Positions 53,483 to 64,000 of a stretch of 64,000 nucleotides of DNA are shown in pieces (the first letter of the stretch is position 1; each line of letters starts with the position of its first letter). Both the position numbers and the translations under genes were made by a program. The DNA comes from Sphingomonas sp. 67-36 (GTDB lineage: Bacteria; Pseudomonadota; Alphaproteobacteria; Sphingomonadales; Sphingomonadaceae): NCBI GenBank assembly GCA_001897375.1, contig MKSU01000014.1, positions 59,745-123,744 of the forward strand, in the 5' to 3' direction. The notes below the pieces were generated by a model. That model was given only the letters and a program-made list of their open reading frames with translations, searched no databases and was not told where the DNA came from.

Positions 53483-55663
53483 TCACTCGCCGGGGCGGTA
53501 TCGCCGCTCGACATGCCCTTGCAGTTCGTCGGGGTAGAAATAGACCGGGCGTAATTGCCCGTCGGCGTAGCGCCGGATCTGGTCCGCGAAATGCGGAGAC
53601 TTTAGATCGCCGCTCTGTCCGCCGGCCATCACCGCCGTGGCCTTCACGCGCGGGCCGAACTCGACGATCGCGACGAAGCTGTTGCCGCTGGTGCCGTAAT
53701 AGCGCTTCGTCCCCGGCCACGGCTTCGCGCCGAACGAGGCGAGGCTGCCCCATTGCGCCGAGGTGAAGGGCACCGGCAGCGACGCGGCCTTGTCGTCGAA
53801 ATGTGGATTGATCGCGTCGTCCAGCCGCTGGAAGCGGTTGATCTCGCGCCATTTGATCCGCCAGTCGCCGAAATCGCCGGTCAGCCGCGTCACCGCTGCT
53901 GCCAGCGCGTCGAGCCGCGCGCCGGGGGAGACTTTCGCCGCGATATAATCGGGCACGTTCATCCGCTCGGCCTGCGCGAAGCTGCCGACCTCGCGCCACA
54001 GGTGATCGCCCCAGAACACCGCGAGGCTGGTCGCGGTGGAATCGTAGCCCCAGCGATAGTCCCAGCCGCGCAGCAGCGCGACCGGCCCGGCAAGGCTCGC
54101 GCGGCGCGGATCGGCGGCGGGCAGCGCATCCCATGCCGAGACCAGTTGCGGGATCAGCTTCGCGAAGGCGGGGAGATAGCTGTCGAACGCCGCGTCGCGC
54201 AGCTTCGCCGCCGTCCAGCCGGTCTTGCCGGTGAGCAGCAGGTCGGCATGGGCGCCGCGCGCATTGCCGCCGGTCTGGTCCATGTAGCGCGGGAAATCCG
54301 CCGCCTTCGGACTGTCCGCCCCGGCGGCGCTCCACGGCCAGTCGTTGGTGTTCTTCACCCAGCCGGTGCCGGGGTTGAGCACGTTGGGCAGCGAGGGGAG
54401 CGCGTGCAGCCCCTTCCAGTCGGTCGCCGGATCGCTGCCGTCCACCGGGCGGGTGTAGTCGAAGCGATTGTCGCGCAGCGGCATGAACTGCGGCATCAGG
54501 AAGGCGATCTCGCCCTTGCTGTCCGCGAACAACGTGTCGTTGGAGGAATTGGCCTTGCGCTCGGCGATCCGCATGAAGCCGGCGAGATCGGTCGCTTTCG
54601 TGCGCAGGTAGCTCTGCTCCAGCGCCGGCACCGGCTTCCACATCAGCGCGGTCGCGATCCACCGCCCGCCGCGCGCGGCGACGATCGGGCCGTGATGGGT
54701 GCGCCACGTCGTGAAGCCGCGCTCGCCCATCGAGCCGTCCGCGCGACGATAGCGCAGCGTCACCCGCTCGCTTGTCACCGCGCGGCTGGCGGAGCCATAG
54801 GCATAGACGTAGCCGTCCCCGGCCTTGCGCACCTTCTCCGCGAACTCGTCGACATTATCGACGGTGGAGGAAGTGTGCATCCACCCCGCCTTGGCATTGA
54901 AGCCCTGATAGATGAAGAACTGGCCCCAGGTGCTCGCGCCATAGGCGTCCAGCCCGGCGTCGCTCGTCATCTGCGCCTCGGAGCGGAAATAGAAGCTGGT
55001 GTGCGGGTTGATGAGCAGCAGCGCATGGCCGTTCGCGGTGATCTTCGGCGCGATGGCGATGCCGTTCGATCCCGAAGGCTCGCGCGGCACGCTGCCGTTC
55101 TCCTCCGGCGTCGGCGGGGTCGGGTTGCCGTAGAAGGTCTTGAGTTCGCTGAGCGAGACGCGCTCGATATCGCCGCCGATGCTGCCCTCGGTGAAGGACA
55201 GCGCCATCCACGGCTCGAACCGCGTGAGCACCTTCGGGCGGACCTCCGGGTGCGTCGCGAGATAATAGTTCAGCCCGTCCGCCCAGGCATCCATCAGCGC
55301 GCGCAGCCACGCGGGGCTGGCGGCATATTCGCGCTTCAGCGCCGCCGGATCGACCCACAGCCGCTGGCGCAGATCGGCCCAGATCGCCTCCTCGCCATCG
55401 GCCTCCGCGCTGCGGCCGAGCGCGGTGAGATAGTTGGCCTCGACGCGCGGGAAATCGTCCTCCGCCTGCGCATAGATCATGCCGAACACCGCGTCCGCGT
55501 CGCTCTTGCCGTGGACATGCGGGATGCCCCAGTCGTCGCGCGTGATCGTCACCCGCGCCGCCTCGGCCCGCCAGCGCGCCATGTCGGCGTCCACCGGGGC
55601 GGCGGTGGCGGTCAGCGAAAGCAGAAGCGGGGCTAGGAGCAGGGGACGAAGGCTTATATCCAT
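53483..55663 (-). CDS. Secreted penicillin acylase family Ntn hydrolase
   Basis: A 726-residue periplasmic protein. Signal peptide residues 1-22 (LTATA-APVD). The alpha part begins VTITRDDWGIPHVHGKSDADAVFGMIYAQAEDDF. Ser199 in EPSGSNGIAIAP is the N-terminal nucleophile exposed by autocleavage after Gly198. The beta chain has NPHTSFYF, THHGPIV and NDTLFADSKGEIAFL. The family hydrolyses amides such as N-acyl homoserine lactones, acyl-amino acids or beta-lactams; substrate cannot be told. It is divergent from a secreted amidohydrolase gene across 35 bases. Confidence 0.92.
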   Translation of the reverse strand: MDISLRPLLLAPLLLSLTATAAPVDADMARWRAEAARVTITRDDWGIPHVHGKSDADAVFGMIYAQAEDDFPRVEANYLTALGRSAEADGEEAIWADLRQRLWVDPAALKREYAASPAWLRALMDAWADGLNYYLATHPEVRPKVLTRFEPWMALSFTEGSIGGDIERVSLSELKTFYGNPTPPTPEENGSVPREPSGSNGIAIAPKITANGHALLLINPHTSFYFRSEAQMTSDAGLDAYGASTWGQFFIYQGFNAKAGWMHTSSTVDNVDEFAEKVRKAGDGYVYAYGSASRAVTSERVTLRYRRADGSMGERGFTTWRTHHGPIVAARGGRWIATALMWKPVPALEQSYLRTKATDLAGFMRIAERKANSSNDTLFADSKGEIAFLMPQFMPLRDNRFDYTRPVDGSDPATDWKGLHALPSLPNVLNPGTGWVKNTNDWPWSAAGADSPKAADFPRYMDQTGGNARGAHADLLLTGKTGWTAAKLRDAAFDSYLPAFAKLIPQLVSAWDALPAADPRRASLAGPVALLRGWDYRWGYDSTATSLAVFWGDHLWREVGSFAQAERMNVPDYIAAKVSPGARLDALAAAVTRLTGDFGDWRIKWREINRFQRLDDAINPHFDDKAASLPVPFTSAQWGSLASFGAKPWPGTKRYYGTSGNSFVAIVEFGPRVKATAVMAGGQSGDLKSPHFADQIRRYADGQLRPVYFYPDELQGHVERRYRPGE

Positions 55664-55698: not shown

Positions 55699-56973
55699 AT
55701 GCGCTTGATCGCGCTGATGATGGCGGCGCTGCTCGGATCGGCCGGCGCGGCGGCGATGGCTGAAGGCCCCGGCGGGGCGATGCTCATCAAGCCCGATGCG
55801 GTGTTCGATCCGGTCGACGGCAAGCGTCATCCCGGCTGGCAGGTGCTGGTGCGCGGAGAGACGATCGTCGCGGTCGGCCCCGATCTCGCCGCGCCGGCGG
55901 GCGCCGAGGTGCTGGCGCTGCCGGGCGACACGCTGATGCCGGGGATGATCGAGGGGCACGGCCACCTCTTTCTCCATCCCTATAACCAGACGAGCTGGGA
56001 CGATCAGGTGCTGCACGAGCCGCTTGCGCTGCGCACCGCGCGCGCCGTGGCGCAGGCGCGCGCGACCCTGCTCGCCGGCTTCACCAGCGAGCGCGATCTC
56101 GGCACGGAGGGCGCCGGCTATGCCGACGTCGGGCTGAAGCAGGCGATCGAGCAGGGGATCATGCCCGGCCCCCGGCTGTCGGTGGCGACCAGGGCGATCG
56201 TCGCGCTCGGCGCCTACGGGCCGAAGGGGTTCGAGCCGGGCGTCGCGATCCCGCAGGGCGCGGCGGAAGCCTCCGGCGTCGATCAGGTCGTCGCGGAGGT
56301 GCGGCGGCAGATCGCGGCGGGCGCGGACTGGGTGAAACTCTATGCCGATTATCGCTGGCGGCCCGGCGAGGACAGCCGCGCGACGCTGGGCGCGGAGGAG
56401 ATCAGGGCGGCGGTCGCGGCGGCGCACGATGCCGGGCGGCCGGTGGCGGTCCATGCCGCGACCGCCGAGGGGATGCGCCGCTCGATCGCGGCCGGCGTCG
56501 ACACGATCGAGCATGGCTATGGCGGCACGCCGGAAATCTTCGCGGCAATGGCGGCGAAGGGGATCGCCTATTGCCCGACGCTCGCCGCATCGGATTCGGT
56601 CGCGCGCTATCGCGGCTGGAACGGGGCCGAGCCGGCGCCGGCCAGCGTGAAGCTCGCCCGCGAGGCGTTCCGGCTCGCGCTCAGGGCGGGCGTGCGCATG
56701 TGCATGGGTGGCGATGTCGGCGTGTTCGCGCATGGCGAGAATGCGCGCGAGATGGAGCTTATGGTGGCGGGCGGCATGACCCCGGCGCAGGTGCTGACCG
56801 CCGCCACCTGGGGCAATGCGCGCTGGTTCGGGCTGGACGCGAAGCTGGGCGCGGTGAAGCCGGGGATGCTGGCCGATCTGGTCGCGGTGCATGGCGATCC
56901 GACGGCGGATATCGGCGCGGTGCGGCGGATCGGGATGGTGATGAAGGGCGGCGCGGTGGTCGTGCGGCAGTAG
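55699..56973 (+). CDS. Secreted amidohydrolase (prolidase/Xaa-Arg dipeptidase-like)
   Basis: A 424-residue metal hydrolase. Signal peptide residues 1-21. Metal ligands are visible in PGMIEGHGHLFLHP (two His), ADWVKLYADY (carboxylated Lys), PVAVHAATAEGM (His), DTIEHGYGG (His) and CMGGDVGVFAHG (Asp). This layout is shared with COG1228 enzymes, some of which from Caulobacter cut dipeptides with C-terminal Arg, Lys or Pro. It is divergent from the acylase gene with only 35 bases between starts. Whether it acts in peptide use with the nearby isoaspartyl locus is speculation. Confidence 0.9.
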   Translation: MRLIALMMAALLGSAGAAAMAEGPGGAMLIKPDAVFDPVDGKRHPGWQVLVRGETIVAVGPDLAAPAGAEVLALPGDTLMPGMIEGHGHLFLHPYNQTSWDDQVLHEPLALRTARAVAQARATLLAGFTSERDLGTEGAGYADVGLKQAIEQGIMPGPRLSVATRAIVALGAYGPKGFEPGVAIPQGAAEASGVDQVVAEVRRQIAAGADWVKLYADYRWRPGEDSRATLGAEEIRAAVAAAHDAGRPVAVHAATAEGMRRSIAAGVDTIEHGYGGTPEIFAAMAAKGIAYCPTLAASDSVARYRGWNGAEPAPASVKLAREAFRLALRAGVRMCMGGDVGVFAHGENAREMELMVAGGMTPAQVLTAATWGNARWFGLDAKLGAVKPGMLADLVAVHGDPTADIGAVRRIGMVMKGGAVVVRQ

Positions 56974-58666: not shown

Positions 58667-59107
58667 TCAGCGCTGCAATCTGGTCGCGAGGATGATCGAG
58701 GAGGTGGTGCGCTCCACCCCTTCGATCATCCCGATGCGGTCGATCAGGTCGTTGAGCCGCTCCGGGCTGTCGGCTTCGACCATCGCGATCATGTCGAACT
58801 GGCCGGCGATGGCGTGGAGCGCGGTCAGCTCCGGCATGGCGGCGAGCTGCTCGAACGTCGCCTGCGTCAGCTTGGGGAACAGGTTCAGCATGACATGCGC
58901 GCGGATCATCCGCCGCTCGCGCGCGACGCCGAGGCGGACGGTGTAGCCCGCGATCGTCCCGCCCTGTTCCAGTCGCGCGATCCCGGCATAGACCAGGGCG
59001 CGCGACACGCCGAGCGTCGCGGCAAGCTCCGACACCGGCTTGCGCGAATCCTCCCGCAGCAGCGCGAGCAGTTGCGCGTCGAATTCGTCCTGCGCGTTAT
59101 TTGCCAT
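58667..59107 (-). CDS. Lrp/AsnC family regulator of the isoaspartyl peptidase locus
   Basis: A 146-residue regulator starting at ATG 59107, eleven bases inside the end of the fusion hydrolase gene, so the two are translationally coupled. The HTH is KPVSELAATLGVSRALVYAGIARLEQGGTIAGYTV. The RAM domain spans ~70-145 (MIRAHVMLNLFPKLTQATFEQLAAM ... AIAGQFDMIAMVEADSPERLNDLIDRI). Lrp-type proteins sense amino acids. Arg or Asp from the hydrolase would be fitting ligands (inference). The 41-bp dyad at 61099-61139 is a plausible target. Confidence 0.92.
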   Translation of the reverse strand: MANNAQDEFDAQLLALLREDSRKPVSELAATLGVSRALVYAGIARLEQGGTIAGYTVRLGVARERRMIRAHVMLNLFPKLTQATFEQLAAMPELTALHAIAGQFDMIAMVEADSPERLNDLIDRIGMIEGVERTTSSIILATRLQR

Positions 59108-61046
59108 CGACCGTCTCGTCGGCATAGATCGCGACGCGCGGCTCGCCGTCGGCGCTCACCTCGCCGCGATACATCCCTTCCGTGTTCATCGCGAAGGCGG
59201 CATGGCCATCGCCGTCCATCGCGATCAGCCCGCCGTCGCCGCCGATGTCTGCGATCTCGCCGATCGTGTCCTGCGCGGCGCTCGCCACGCTCTCGCCGCG
59301 CCAGCGGATGCGGTCGCACACCTGCCGCCCGGCGCTCTCGCGGATGAAATATTCGCCGGTGCCGGTCGCCGATACGGCGCAGTCGCGGCCGAAGGCGTAG
59401 GTACCCGCGCCGATCAGCGGCGTGTCCCCGATCCGGCCCCAGCGCTTGCCGGTCAGCCCGCCGGTCGAGGTCGCCGCCGCGAGGTGGCCGTGCATGTCGA
59501 GCGCCACCGCGCCGACCGTGCCGAAGCGATGCGTCGGGTCCTGCGCGGCCTGCTCGTTGCCGCGCTTCCAATCGAGATATTCCTGCCAGCGCTTTTCGGT
59601 GCGGAAATAGGAAGGGTCGACCTGCTCGATGCCCTGCTCGCGGGCGAATTCGTCCGCCCCGGCCCCGCTCAGCAGCACGTGGCCGCTATGCTCCATCACC
59701 GCGCGCGCCAGCGCCACCGGGTTCTTCGTCGCGCTCACGCCCGCCACCGCGCCGGCGCGCAGCGAGGCGCCGTCCATGATCGCCGCGTCGAGCTGGTTCT
59801 TGCCCTCCGCGTCGAACACGGCGCCGCGCCCGGCGTTGAACAGCGGATTGTCCTCCAGCGCCATCACCGCAGCCTCCACCGCGTCGAGGCTGCTGCCGCC
59901 CGCCTTCAGCACCGCTGACCCGGCGACGAGCGCGTCGGTCAGGCCCTGACGATAGGCGCGCTCCTGCTCCGGCGTCAGCGCGCCGTGCGGGATCACGCCC
60001 GCGCCGCCGTGGATCGCCAGCGACCAGCGGCGGTCGGGCAGGACGGGCACGCCATCCAGCCGCCCGTCGCGCACCGATGCGGTGCTGGTGAAGGCTATCT
60101 CCGGCATCTTCAGCGTGCGCAGGTCGATGGTGTGGCCGGGGGCGATGCCGGTCACGCGGATATCGTCCCAGTCGAGCGGGGTTCCGCGCTTCAGCGAGGG
60201 CACGCCGCGCGGCTGGATGAGCCATGCGAAGGTGCCGTCCGGCCCGTGGAAACGCGCGACGCCCTTCGCATCGACGCACAGCGCGCCACGCTCGTCCACG
60301 CCGATGCCGATCGCGTGCCGGTCTCCGCTGGCGCGCGCGGAGGCGACGAAGGCGATCAGCCGGCCCAGCCGGTCGCGCTTGTTGAAATGCGTGTCGGTGA
60401 CGACATGCGCCAGATAGGGCATCCTGAGGAAACCGTGCACCATCGTCATCGCCGGCCCGGCGGGATCGTTCAGCGCGGTCATTGAATCGATGCTGCCGCC
60501 GTCGAGCGCGCCATAGGCGGTGCCGCCGAGGATCGCGAGGCCGGCGCTGGTGCCGCCGATCGGCCGCCCCTTGCGCACATGGGCGTTGAGCGCGCGGGCG
60601 ACGGGCGTGTCCTTCCAGTACCGCACATAGCGCGCCTGATCCCCGCCGGCGATGAAGATGCCGTCGGCATGGGCGATGATCGACAGCACACGCGGGTCGC
60701 TCGACGCCTTGCGGTCGCTGAACACGAGCGTCTCCACCGAGGCGACGCCGCCGATGTCGCGGAACATCTCCTCGCCCGCGTCGGCGCCGCCGGACGCGCG
60801 GAGGATTACGATATGGCCGCTGCCCGCCTTCTCGACGAACCAGCGGAAGGCCTCGCGATTCCAGTCGCCGCCGCCGACCAGCATCAGGCCGGGCGAAGTC
60901 CTGGCGCGCAGGGTGCCGGCGGTGTTGCCGATCGAGTAATAATTATAGCCGGCCGAAGGCAGGGCGGGGGCCGCGGCGGCGGCGATCGGCATCAGCGCGG
61001 CCGCGGCGAGGGCCAGTTTCATGAAAAATTGTTGTGTTCGGCCCAT
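59097..61046 (-). CDS. Cyanophycinase (S51) - isoaspartyl peptidase/asparaginase (T2) fusion
   Basis: A 649-residue secreted protein. Residues 1-26 are a signal peptide (AAAAA-PALP). Residues ~40-320 form an S51 cyanophycinase-like domain: GGDQARYVRYW, nucleophile Ser167 in IGGTSAGLAIL, His220 in DTHFNKRDRLGRL, and GIGVDERGAL. Residues ~340-649 are a plant-type asparaginase/isoaspartyl peptidase: LAIHGGAGVI, NAGRGAVF, autocleavage at Gly509/Thr510 in RFGTVGAVALD, ATSTGG and GRIGDTPLIGAG. Cyanophycinase yields beta-Asp-Arg; isoaspartyl peptidase splits it to Asp and Arg, so both steps are in one chain. T2 self-cleavage would leave S51 joined to the alpha chain. Divergent from a TonB receptor. 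Confidence 0.93.
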   Translation of the reverse strand: MGRTQQFFMKLALAAAALMPIAAAAAPALPSAGYNYYSIGNTAGTLRARTSPGLMLVGGGDWNREAFRWFVEKAGSGHIVILRASGGADAGEEMFRDIGGVASVETLVFSDRKASSDPRVLSIIAHADGIFIAGGDQARYVRYWKDTPVARALNAHVRKGRPIGGTSAGLAILGGTAYGALDGGSIDSMTALNDPAGPAMTMVHGFLRMPYLAHVVTDTHFNKRDRLGRLIAFVASARASGDRHAIGIGVDERGALCVDAKGVARFHGPDGTFAWLIQPRGVPSLKRGTPLDWDDIRVTGIAPGHTIDLRTLKMPEIAFTSTASVRDGRLDGVPVLPDRRWSLAIHGGAGVIPHGALTPEQERAYRQGLTDALVAGSAVLKAGGSSLDAVEAAVMALEDNPLFNAGRGAVFDAEGKNQLDAAIMDGASLRAGAVAGVSATKNPVALARAVMEHSGHVLLSGAGADEFAREQGIEQVDPSYFRTEKRWQEYLDWKRGNEQAAQDPTHRFGTVGAVALDMHGHLAAATSTGGLTGKRWGRIGDTPLIGAGTYAFGRDCAVSATGTGEYFIRESAGRQVCDRIRWRGESVASAAQDTIGEIADIGGDGGLIAMDGDGHAAFAMNTEGMYRGEVSADGEPRVAIYADETVDGK

Positions 61047-61098
61047 CTTCTACTAATCTCCGGCACAAAATGTCGATATAAGCGAGCAAAGTGAAATA

Positions 61099-61139
61099 TT
61101 GACTTCGTAACATGCGCCATAAGCATGTCATTATGTCAA
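61099..61139. promoter_or_regulatory. 41-bp symmetric dyad in the divergent fusion/TonB receptor promoter
   Basis: TTGAC-N6-ACATGC-N7-GCATGT-N6-GTCAA. The inner arms are at 61110-61115 and 61123-61128; the outer at 61099-61103 and 61135-61139. Spacers are equal on both sides, so the element has exact two-fold symmetry around 61119. It lies 53 bases from the fusion ATG and 31 from the receptor ATG. TTGACT at 61099 may also be a -35 box for the receptor. It is the strongest operator-like site in the window. Confidence 0.65.
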
Positions 61140-61170
61140 TCGGGCAAAAAGGGGCTCCGGGGGGTAACAT

Positions 61171-63933
61171 ATGCGTCTGTCGAAAATCGCAACCGTCGCG
61201 CTGTGCGGCGCCAGCCTGATGACCACCGCCACCGCGGCGCTGGCGCAGACCGGGGGAGGCGCGCAGCAATCGGCCGACGAGAGCGGCGACGTCGTCGTGC
61301 TCGGCTCGCGCATCCCGCGCCTGCAACAGGAAGGCCCGGCGCCGGTGACCACCGTCACCGCCGACGACATCGCGAAGAACGGCTTCCAGAGCGTGCCGGA
61401 CGTCCTGCGCTCGCTGACGCAGAACGGCGGCGCGACGCAGAGCCAGCAGGATTATTCCAATTCGTCCTTCACGCCGGGCGCGCAGCAGGTCGACCTGCGC
61501 GGGCTGGGGCCGAACCATACGCTCGTACTGGTCAACGGCCGCCGCATCGCCGATTTCCCGCTGCCGTTCGAAGGCAACAGCAACTTCACCGATATCTCGA
61601 ACATCCCGGTCGGGCTGATCGACCAGATCCAGGTGCTGAGCGGCAGCGCCTCGGCGATCTATGGCTCGGACGCGGTGGCGGGCGTCGTCAACTTCAAGAT
61701 GAAGTCCAAGATGGACGGCACGCAGCTCGATTTCCGCTACGGCGATACGCAGCACGGCGGCGGCGCCTCCTATCGTCTCACCGGCGTGACGGGGTGGGAT
61801 ACGGGACGTTTCCACGGCGTGCTCGGCGTCGAGCTGCTCAACCAGCGCCCGCTGTGGCAATGGCAGCGCTCGCGGCAGGATTCGACCAATGACAATCCGG
61901 TGTCACCCGTCGCGCGGCGCACCTTCCTGCGCACCGACGAATATTACGACTATATCAATCCGGGCAAATCGACCTGCGACAAGCTTTCGTCGCTGAACCA
62001 GGGCTCGACCTATTATGCGTCGCGGCCCAATTACGACACGTTCGACGGGCCAGGCTATTTCTGCGGCAGCGACAAGTCGGTTGCCTATGGCACGATGCTG
62101 TCGGAGCGGAAGTCGATCAACGCCTATAGCTCGCTGGGTCTTGCACTGGGCGAGAAGACCGAATTGTTCGCCGATCTCCAGCTCAGCTATTCAAGGCTGA
62201 AGCTGATGCGCGACGTGCTGAGCTGGTATTATGTCGCGCCGGACGGGAATGAGGAGGGCACCTTCTTCAATCCCAACCTGTCGCCCGACGCGACCTATAG
62301 CGGCGCGCAGCTCGATAACTGGACGCGCCAGTTCACGCCGGAGGAGATGGGCGGCTTCGGCCCGGCGATGACCCGCAACGATTCGGTCGCGTTCAGCTTC
62401 ACGCCCGGAATCAGGGGATCGTTCGGGGAGGGTGATCGGTGGCATTACGAGCTGTCGTTCAATCACGCCGAATATCATTCCAAGGTGGCGTTCCCGGAGG
62501 TCGTGATCGGCAAGGCCAACGCCTTCTTCCTCGGCCAGCAGCAGGGTGTCGACGAGGCGAGCGGCTATCCGATCTTCGACGCGGACGTGGCGCGGCTCTA
62601 TACGCCGCTCACCCCGGCGCAATATCGCTCGATCACGGCGGATGCGGTCTATCGGCCGAAATCGTGGGTGAACAATCTCTCCGCCACGGTGAACACCACG
62701 CAATTGTTCAACCTGCCGGCCGGCCCGGTCGGCTTCGCGGCGGTGTTCGAGGCGGGCAATCAGGGCTTCAACCTCCGCCCCGATCCGCTGGCGCTGACGC
62801 AATATTATGTCGGACTGGTGGATTCGGACGGCGAAGGGCAGCGCGGCCACTGGGGCGGGGGCGTCGAGTTCCGTGTCCCCGTCCTGTCGGTTCTCAGCAT
62901 CAGCGCGGCGGGACGCTACGATCACTATCGCGCCGACCGCAATGGCTATGGCCGTTTCACCTACAATGTCGGTGGGGAGTTGCGCCCGACCTCGCACCTG
63001 TTGCTGCGCGGCGCCTACGGCACGGGCTTCCGCGCGCCTGACCTCAACTACGTGTTCCGCGGCCCCGGCAACGTCCATTCCGGCGGGACCGATTACTATC
63101 AGTGCGCGACCCAGGAGACCGACGATTGCGAGGTGAATTTCATCGCCTACAAGCTCGGCAACCGTAACCTGCGGCCGGAAACCTCCACCTCGTTCAACGG
63201 CGGCGTGGTGTGGCAGCCGTCGCGGCGTTTCGACGTGTCGGTCGATTATTTCCGCGTGAAGATGAAGAACCAGGTGCTCGATATGGATATCGACAGCCTG
63301 CTCCGCGCCGAATCCTCATGCCGCCTGTCCGGCTCCACCACGCCGACCTGCGTAGATGCGATCAGCCGTGTGCAGCGCTACGCCAGCGGCGCGCTCGAAG
63401 GACAGATTCAGGGCGTCCATATCGAGCCGATCAACGTGGCGGAGGAAACCACCGACGGCATCGACGCCGCCGTCCATGTGAAGCTGCCGACCGCCGCGCT
63501 CGGCGAATTCGCGCTGTCGGCCGGCTACACCTATGTCTTCAATCACACGATCCGGCAGTATCCGGGCGATCCGATCGTCGACAAGCTGCGCTACGACAGC
63601 AATTACTACATCCCGCGCGACAAGGGCATGGCGAGCCTGACGTGGACGCTGGACCGCTTCTCCACCACGCTGACCGGGCAGCGGCTCGGCAAGCTGCCCA
63701 ATTACGACGAGGACGCCTATATCAAGGCGAGCTATACCTTCAATCTGACCGCGCGCTACGACATCACCGATCGCCTGCGGGTGACGGGCACGATCAACAA
63801 CCTGTTCGATCAGGCGCCGATCTTCGATCGCACCTGGTCCAGCTACCCCTATTACGATTCGACGTGGTTCGACGGCATCGGCCGCAGCTTCTACCTGCAG
63901 GTGACCTACAAGATGGGTGGCGCTCCGCTCTAG
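61171..63933 (+). CDS. TonB-dependent outer-membrane receptor
   Basis: A 920-residue receptor. Signal peptide residues 1-26 (ALA-QTGGG). A TonB-box-like DVVVLGSRIPR comes before the plug (PVTTVTADDIAKNGFQSVPDVLRSL, VDLRGLGPNHTLVLVNGRR, QVLSGSASAIYGSDAVAGVVNFKM). The 22-strand barrel ends ...RSFYLQVTYKMGGAPL, with RGAYGTGFRAPDLNYVF and NLRPETSTSFNGGVVW as typical barrel blocks. No N-terminal sigma-regulating STN domain. Start follows GGGG. It would import its ligand using proton-motive force. Divergence from the isoaspartyl fusion suggests the ligand is a peptide or its breakdown product. An IS end follows 13 bases after the stop. Confidence 0.95.
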   Translation: MRLSKIATVALCGASLMTTATAALAQTGGGAQQSADESGDVVVLGSRIPRLQQEGPAPVTTVTADDIAKNGFQSVPDVLRSLTQNGGATQSQQDYSNSSFTPGAQQVDLRGLGPNHTLVLVNGRRIADFPLPFEGNSNFTDISNIPVGLIDQIQVLSGSASAIYGSDAVAGVVNFKMKSKMDGTQLDFRYGDTQHGGGASYRLTGVTGWDTGRFHGVLGVELLNQRPLWQWQRSRQDSTNDNPVSPVARRTFLRTDEYYDYINPGKSTCDKLSSLNQGSTYYASRPNYDTFDGPGYFCGSDKSVAYGTMLSERKSINAYSSLGLALGEKTELFADLQLSYSRLKLMRDVLSWYYVAPDGNEEGTFFNPNLSPDATYSGAQLDNWTRQFTPEEMGGFGPAMTRNDSVAFSFTPGIRGSFGEGDRWHYELSFNHAEYHSKVAFPEVVIGKANAFFLGQQQGVDEASGYPIFDADVARLYTPLTPAQYRSITADAVYRPKSWVNNLSATVNTTQLFNLPAGPVGFAAVFEAGNQGFNLRPDPLALTQYYVGLVDSDGEGQRGHWGGGVEFRVPVLSVLSISAAGRYDHYRADRNGYGRFTYNVGGELRPTSHLLLRGAYGTGFRAPDLNYVFRGPGNVHSGGTDYYQCATQETDDCEVNFIAYKLGNRNLRPETSTSFNGGVVWQPSRRFDVSVDYFRVKMKNQVLDMDIDSLLRAESSCRLSGSTTPTCVDAISRVQRYASGALEGQIQGVHIEPINVAEETTDGIDAAVHVKLPTAALGEFALSAGYTYVFNHTIRQYPGDPIVDKLRYDSNYYIPRDKGMASLTWTLDRFSTTLTGQRLGKLPNYDEDAYIKASYTFNLTARYDITDRLRVTGTINNLFDQAPIFDRTWSSYPYYDSTWFDGIGRSFYLQVTYKMGGAPL

Positions 63934-64000
63934 GCGTTGTCTGCATTCATCGTAACCAGATGATGGCGCAGGCGAGGTGAACGAAGCCCATGAAGGCAGA
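63934..64000 (-). mobile_element. IS5-type insertion sequence, right-edge fragment
   Basis: The last 67 bases hold the 3' end of a leftward transposase gene and 13 further bases (GCGTTGTCTGCAT) that probably belong to the element's terminal repeat. The element begins right after the receptor's stop codon, in the sequence CTCTAG. IS5-group elements often target CTAG or TNA. The rest lies outside the window. Confidence 0.6.
63947..64000 (-). CDS. IS5 family transposase, C-terminal 17 residues (partial)
   Basis: The reverse strand reads AFMGFVHLACAIIWLR followed by TGA at 63949-63947. This C-terminus, a short helix with FVHLACAIIWLR, is characteristic of IS5-type (DDE) transposases, whose conserved C1 Glu lies upstream. 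Only the tail is in the window. The group cannot be fixed from so few residues. Confidence 0.7.
   Translation of the reverse strand, partial: SAFMGFVHLACAIIWLR

Follow-up and report, generated by a model that had tools for sequence, protein, structure and literature searches.

Cyanophycin is a nitrogen-rich storage polymer made by other microbes, and to our knowledge its capture by non-producing bacteria has been little worked out. A locus at one end of a 64,000-nucleotide stretch of Sphingomonas sp. 67-36 (contig MKSU01000014.1; hereafter the window) raises the question of whether such a bacterium could capture and digest it with a dedicated set of genes. Here a gene for a secreted fusion of a peptidase family S51 domain with a T2 isoaspartyl peptidase-type domain is followed by a gene for an Lrp-type regulator and diverges from that of a TonB-dependent receptor (TBDT). 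A sequence-only reading of this DNA had proposed that the three form a capture-digest-sense unit for fragments of cyanophycin or for isoaspartyl-damaged peptides, serving scavenging rather than storage. Our analysis suggests that the locus is probably a cyanophycin-scavenging module, with damaged isoaspartyl peptides as a possible extra substrate.

The coordinates and reading frames of the fusion, Lrp and TBDT genes were correct on rechecking, and the fusion that the sequence-only reading had described in one secreted chain was borne out: both domains were matched, the N-terminal one as S51, in 649 uninterrupted codons with no internal stop, behind a signal-like segment recognized by eye. Pfam domains and gene positions likewise agreed with the Lrp-type regulator and the divergent TBDT, and Ser167, His220 and Thr510, as proposed, occupy the expected catalytic positions. 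Within the fusion, Pfam Peptidase_S51 matched residues 103 to 177 (7.2e-10), and against the isolated S51 part PDB chains named cyanophycinase gave 4e-14 to 2e-12, whereas Peptidase E reached only 0.003. Sequence, model and fold comparison all place an S51 fold here, with the nucleophile elbow G-T-S-A-G and the catalytic Ser, His and Glu present. Five pocket residues listed in the passages of PMC3235067 at hand (Gln101, Asp172, Arg178, Arg180 and Arg183 in CphB numbering) all occur in the window and in 90 of 91 aligned rows, the remaining row having a gap; likewise conserved are the three Arg and the Thr typical of CphE, in whose place 19 relatives have Ser. Modelled alone with 57 rows, the S51 domain gave a mean pLDDT of 90.6 and a predicted structure resembling cyanophycinase. 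A model of the full-length fusion was dropped (mean pLDDT 56 with 9 rows, the T2 part poor). The module S51 resembles CphE of Pseudomonas, which the same passages describe as exported and whose Ser/His/Glu, Gln, Asp, Thr and three Arg fall at equivalent positions; the passages describe no T2 domain in CphE, whereas the module S51 is fused to one.

For the C-terminal part, Pfam Asparaginase_2 matched residues 341 to 641 at 8e-106 (354 bits, cut-off 27), and the best solved structure was 2zak (260 bits). On the NCBIfam beta-aspartyl-peptidase model it scored 285 bits against a cut-off of 567, a family-level match below the equivalog cut-off, and we file it as a T2 isoaspartyl peptidase-type domain. 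The N-terminal Thr nucleophile after Gly and the conserved substrate residues are present, and Thr510, Thr528, Arg538, Asp541, Thr561 and Gly562 are conserved in 58 of 59 T2 rows, with a gap in the last. Enzymes of the T2 family cleave themselves into two chains; such self-cleavage is described for IaaA in the part of PMC10206079 at hand.

A scan of named genomes returned at least 507 relatives among at least 593 candidates, and the locus counts given here rest on the best 80, which lean to close relatives. We counted a TBDT as related at more than 40% identity and more than 200 bits within four genes of S51, and a separate neighbouring T2 at more than 45% identity; gene starts are those of a basic in-house caller, and BLAST against a handful of query sequences, rather than Pfam, supplied the names of most neighbours. 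The 80 loci come from Sphingomonas, Novosphingobium, Brevundimonas, Citromicrobium, Erythrobacter, Euryhalocaulis, Caulobacter, Asticcacaulis, Rhodanobacter, Stenotrophomonas, Lysobacter, Pseudoxanthomonas, Luteimonas and Tahibacter, plus metagenome-assembled genomes. A divergent related TBDT (43 to 73% identity) accompanies S51 in 78 of them, across Alpha- and Gammaproteobacteria, the exceptions being L168 and L182, which makes the S51-TBDT arrangement more than a coincidence. T2 is fused in 33 loci (L140 and L171 partial), a separate neighbour in 25 and absent in 22, with the same S51-T2 gene order in fused and separate loci. S51 is therefore computationally co-conserved with the TBDT and with T2. 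The survey of neighbours that the sequence-only reading had called for thus favoured the TBDT; Lrp did not emerge as a constant part and is one variant, with a window-type Lrp no more than two genes away from S51 in 27 of the 80 loci.

Although 48 of 61 genomes in the first sample matched the fusion, most did so through T2 only; full-length fusions were found in the window's own genome and in S. adhaesiva (G005), while G007 held one in pieces on two contigs, and in G002, G003 and G023 distant T2 and S51 relatives were neighbours but encoded by separate genes. Identities between S. adhaesiva and the window are 69% for the TBDT, 72% for the fusion and 67% for Lrp, and the flanks outside the module are without a match. 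The order was sampled with 396 genomes: any match at 1e-8 was seen in 50, and close relatives (48 to 100% identity) in 13, of which 8 are fused, 5 are unfused and 11 have a related TBDT in the fetched stretch. A class-wide sample of 385 genomes yielded a close relative in the own genome only, with distant S51 matches (26 to 34%) in seven others. Large plasmid records of two Novosphingobium strains also matched the fusion, each in a single piece covering 94% of it at about 58% identity (NZ_CP017076.1, 16410-18236; NZ_CP141945.1, 1815625-1817475), with no listed gene under either match.

These distributions bear on the simplest alternative, that an ordinary secreted hydrolase fusion happens to lie beside an unrelated TBDT and Lrp gene. 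TBDTs are indeed common in the own genome, where 33 stretches match the window TBDT, the second by score being 30% identical and no further one exceeding 41% identity (220 residues). However, the related receptor recurs in the same divergent orientation across two classes, the flanks beyond the module differ between the window and S. adhaesiva, and S51 and T2 keep their order whether fused or separate. We consider a chance neighbourhood very improbable.

The genes around related loci provide a second line of evidence. After Lrp, S. adhaesiva carries genes for a flavin adenine dinucleotide (FAD) oxidase, HglS (2-oxoadipate), AstA, an aldehyde dehydrogenase and a class-III aminotransferase; the first four of these occur in 8 of the 80 loci, S. 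adhaesiva included, which group on the S51 tree. The aminotransferase scores best as acetylornithine transaminase and is likely AstC. In S. desiccabilis (L129), aminotransferase, AstA and aldehyde dehydrogenase genes 74, 33 and 64% identical to those of S. adhaesiva stand in another order, past Lrp and a LysR gene. The module of S. ginsenosidimutans KACC 14949 (L111) stands next to Ast-type genes. Because AstA is single-copy in the own genome (4.0 Mb), finding it within 8 kb by chance would have a probability of about 0.4% per genome (16 kb of 4 Mb, by rough arithmetic). We did not count candidate HglS and FAD-oxidase genes of S. desiccabilis as equivalent to those of S. adhaesiva: the HglS models gave 25 and 18 bits (cut-offs 600 and 550), and GlcD a weak 149 bits against 568.

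A connection to the polymer itself comes from S. gei, where three further genes continue on the same strand after a secreted S51 gene and Lrp: one weakly GH5-like, one for a cyanophycin synthetase and one for a cyanophycinase. The synthetase matches PDB chains named cyanophycin synthase at 703 to 748 bits. This is the only one of the 80 loci with a synthetase cluster adjoining the module. Cyanophycin synthetase was not found in the own genome (best 74.8 bits, cut-off 850) and was present in 3 of the 41 carrier genomes searched (from 42 of the 80 loci), in two of the three away from the module; in QA11 (L107) cphA lies about 280 kb from it. These counts fit the earlier suggestion of scavenging over storage in the absence of a synthetase. 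The cphA cluster in the genome of L134 (L189) has no match to the module TBDT and was not linked to the module.

Several results nevertheless weigh against a cyanophycin-scavenging module. On the NCBIfam cyanophycinase model TIGR02069 the fusion scored 99.7 bits against 126.6, a family-level match, and because this is under the equivalog cut-off we class its N-terminal part as a cyanophycinase-type domain rather than an assured cyanophycinase. Four other S51 members of the module family scored 86 to 104 bits, also under the cut-off, while the S51 gene of the S. gei cphA cluster, only distantly related to the module S51, reached 286. The best PDB match of the S51 part by sequence was pseudo-CphB (7uqv), which also ties with cyanophycinase in fold comparison of the model. 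Moreover, T2 is missing beside S51 in the 22 loci noted above (two of these cut by a contig end), a related TBDT was not in the fetched stretch for 2 of the 13 close relatives in the order sample, and AstA in the own genome is on a different contig from the module. A separate T2 gene at 55 to 60% identity also occurs in 8 of 11 fused genomes searched, and IaaA-type T2 enzymes are described as promiscuous in the part of PMC10206079 at hand.

The sub-threshold scores and the pseudo-CphB match would also fit another aspartate polymer as the S51 substrate, for example that of pseudo-CphB, within the same capture-digest-sense logic. The conserved CphE-type Thr and three Arg argue against this, as does the S. 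gei synthetase with its matches to cyanophycin synthase chains, and we regard a different polymer as improbable. Alternatively, the locus could scavenge isoaspartyl peptides from damaged protein, S51 acting as an aspartyl-specific exopeptidase and T2 removing beta-Asp, with cyanophycin incidental at most. The S51 family also includes aspartyl dipeptidases, and IaaA and other T2 enzymes accept many beta-aspartyl dipeptides even within cyanophycin clusters (PMC10206079, in the part at hand); we find this alternative unlikely, if less so than a different polymer. We favour the cyanophycin-scavenging reading, and with it the capture-digest-sense logic first proposed for cyanophycin fragments, because the catalytic and pocket residues are conserved, the predicted S51 structure matches cyanophycinase (level with pseudo-CphB), the TBDT is co-conserved, arginine-catabolic genes adjoin in two arrangements and a synthetase cluster adjoins in one genome.

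How might a cyanophycin-scavenging module operate? The TBDT would carry soluble oligomers or fragments of cyanophycin through the outer membrane. In the periplasm, to judge from residues and family chemistry, the S51 domain would cut the Asp backbone with the involvement of Gln137, Ser167, Asp218, Thr219, His220, Arg224, Arg226, Arg229 and Glu252, yielding beta-Asp-Arg or beta-Asp-Lys. On similar grounds the T2 domain, presumably self-cleaved before Thr510, would split these dipeptides into Asp and Arg or Lys, S51 staying joined to the alpha chain after cleavage. The released amino acids would then be taken up and used, arginine probably via an Ast-type pathway in several relatives, and the Lrp-type protein probably controls the divergent gene pair in response to a released amino acid. 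The order of steps, their compartment and the Lrp ligand are as we infer them. The Lrp ATG overlaps the fusion stop by 11 nt, in ATGGCAAATAA, and because of this overlap translational coupling of the two genes is plausible.

Whether the two enzymes were joined once or repeatedly was addressed with trees of 93 T2 rows and 94 S51 rows (L171 left out), both built by a quick method, with long rows and numerous forks lacking support. On the T2 tree, 26 fused rows and a separate Caulobacter row (L179) form one group (support 98), and 24 separate rows and 8 fused Rhodanobacter rows form another (100), both apart from 27 standalone T2 genes. In a 54-row set, from which seven partner rows and all standalone rows were left out, forcing 27 fused rows together lowered lnL by 150 (p-AU 6e-45), while forcing them together with L179 included cost only 11 (p 0.02). 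A flat rejection of a single fused clade was withdrawn, as the p of 6e-45 owes much to the position of L179 among the fused rows. The S51 tree requires 12 changes of the fused label, 8 of them forced by well-supported branches, with gain and loss indistinguishable. We conclude that the fused form probably arose more than once, graded no higher because p rises to 0.02 once L179 is counted in; alternatively, a single fused ancestor may have split later. The idea that the fusion replaces a housekeeping IaaA was rejected as a rule, given the separate T2 retained in 8 of 11 fused genomes; the other three have no separate T2 above 38% identity, and the own genome gave a single T2 match in the search of the 61-genome sample.

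Variation among loci extends to the second enzyme and the sensor. An M20 peptidase gene directly follows the TBDT in 11 of the 80 loci, all unfused Sphingomonas, and in none of the 33 fused or 25 adjacent-T2 loci. Since these 11 form one clade on the S51 tree (98), they count as one event. The M20 peptidase (L129:3669-4988 in S. desiccabilis) is secreted-looking and CPG2-like, and in 6 of 10 M20-locus genomes searched the best T2 match is only 33 to 36% identical; M20 is thus a possible second-step enzyme in place of T2. An assignment of this neighbour to the cyanophycin dipeptide hydrolase CphZ, taken as an M20 enzyme, was dropped, as PMC10206079, in the part at hand, puts CphZ in the M14/succinylglutamate desuccinylase family. 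FecI/FecR-like genes (at least 55% identical to those of L138) lie between TBDT and S51 in 22 of the 80 loci, all with gammaproteobacterial titles. In L138 (2825-7745), the one such locus checked by Pfam, sigma-70 and FecR domains accompany a TBDT with a signalling STN domain, which suggests surface signalling in place of Lrp. The window Lrp has both the AsnC-type helix-turn-helix and the ligand-binding domain. Between TBDT and S51, boxes that differ from GACATATTGA by no more than one mismatch occur in 21 of 27 Lrp-bearing loci versus 0 of 51 other TBDT loci, but the motif was extracted from the very sequences on which it was counted, so the counts are no independent test. Two of the 21 matches sit in 1.3-kb gaps, on the other strand, and outside the divergent region the 27 loci hold 21 more such boxes. 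The window has an inverted pair of such boxes in its divergent region, a candidate operator and a lead only.

Taken together, these observations lead us to a tentative proposal, which we hold at a little short of even confidence: that Alpha- and Gammaproteobacteria possess an outer-membrane route dedicated to importing cyanophycin oligomers, that its two enzymes were fused more than once so that beta-Asp-Arg is split before diffusing away, and that sensors (Lrp, FecI/FecR) and second-step enzymes (T2, M20) vary by lineage. A conserved TBDT tied to a cyanophycinase-type gene provides a named candidate cyanophycin importer. If fusion did recur in the same order, this would be evidence that both enzymes work sequentially on one substrate, and the variants (M20 for T2, FecI/FecR for Lrp) offer internal controls and a candidate new second-step enzyme.

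The sequence-only reading knew of no described system of this architecture. This stands for the fusion with a TBDT, which we did not find described; it does not stand for cyanophycin-scavenging loci or for a TBDT near a cyanophycinase, both of which are known. In the part of PMC10206079 at hand, scavenging loci are already described, and cyanophycinase and IaaA genes cluster in 30 of 32 genomes without cphA1; the lack of a synthetase in the own genome matches these clusters. Their Table 4 places the same two families side by side, whereas the module joins them in one chain with a TBDT. The cyanophycin utilization locus (Ben Hania et al. 2017, as cited there) likewise combines cyanophycinase, isoaspartyl dipeptidase and uptake for scavenging, and the module too holds cyanophycinase-type and isoaspartyl-dipeptidase-type domains together, with uptake presumably by the TBDT. 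That locus is described there with iadA and a transporter, whereas the module has an exported S51 that carries a T2 domain of the IaaA type in the same chain, a divergent TBDT and Lrp. A TBDT near a cyanophycinase in Citromicrobium sp. JLT1363, with cyanophycin as predicted substrate, was noted in 2012 (PMC3400609). JLT1363 carries a fused locus of the module kind (L141), although the passages of PMC3400609 at hand describe no fusion, and a second locus (L193, 3744-10242), in which another TBDT and a DcuC-type transporter accompany S51 and T2 encoded by separate genes; either of the two may be the locus in Figure 4f of that paper. The words "fusion" and "fused" do not occur in the part of the PMC10206079 text at hand, the parts of PMC12661447, PMC10687191 and PMC4742617 at hand make no mention of an S51-T2 fusion, and none was found in titles and abstract openings of open-licence literature, a weak negative. 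This kind of scavenging system is therefore known, and the variant here is a single-chain S51-T2 protein with a divergent TBDT.

Table 1. Features of the locus, in window positions
Feature	Position	Strand	Basis
TBDT, plug and beta-barrel	61171..63933	+	Pfam Plug 1.1e-22, barrel 1.4e-35
Divergent intergenic region common to TBDT and fusion genes, 124 bases	61047..61170	.	Read from sequence
Candidate operator, inverted GACATATTGA-like boxes	61093..61137	.	Boxes 61093-61102 and 61128-61137, one mismatch each
Secreted S51-T2 fusion, 649 aa	59097..61046	-	Domain searches (Pfam, NCBIfam, PDB)
Putative signal peptide, residues 1 to ~25	60972..61046	-	Hydrophobic segment, then AAAAAP; by eye
S51 cyanophycinase-type domain and C-terminal extension, residues 26-335	60042..60971	-	Pfam, PDB chains, residues, model/fold
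S51 nucleophile Ser167	60546-60548	-	Residue comparison
T2 isoaspartyl peptidase/asparaginase domain, residues 339-649	59100..60032	-	Pfam Asparaginase_2, PDB match 2zak, residues
T2 nucleophile and presumed self-cleavage site Thr510	59517-59519	-	Residue comparison
Lrp/AsnC-family regulator	58667..59107, alternative start 59125	-	Pfam AsnC_trans_reg 7.2e-14, HTH_AsnC-type 6.7e-10

The window ends with its contig, 67 bases past the TBDT stop (63933-64000), and genes beyond the TBDT are out of view. A few genes beyond Lrp lie a penicillin-amidase-family protein (53483-55663) and an amidohydrolase (55699-56973) like the Caulobacter Xaa-Pro dipeptidase (266 bits, cut-off 500). Elsewhere, L101 (4418-10825) holds in a row a different TBDT, a DcuC-type transporter, S51 and a separate T2, like the second locus of JLT1363, and in Asticcacaulis a Na+:dicarboxylate symporter gene lies between the fusion and Lrp. 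Five loci have a different Lrp-like gene between TBDT and fusion (L137:7259-7729, L141:7235-7522, L144, L147 and L180), named by eye and by BLAST among themselves. A peptidase family C69 gene adjoins the TBDT in L141 (2553-4100) and L137 (2279-3721), and in L141 the fusion is followed by a gene for a pyridoxal phosphate enzyme of Cys/Met metabolism.

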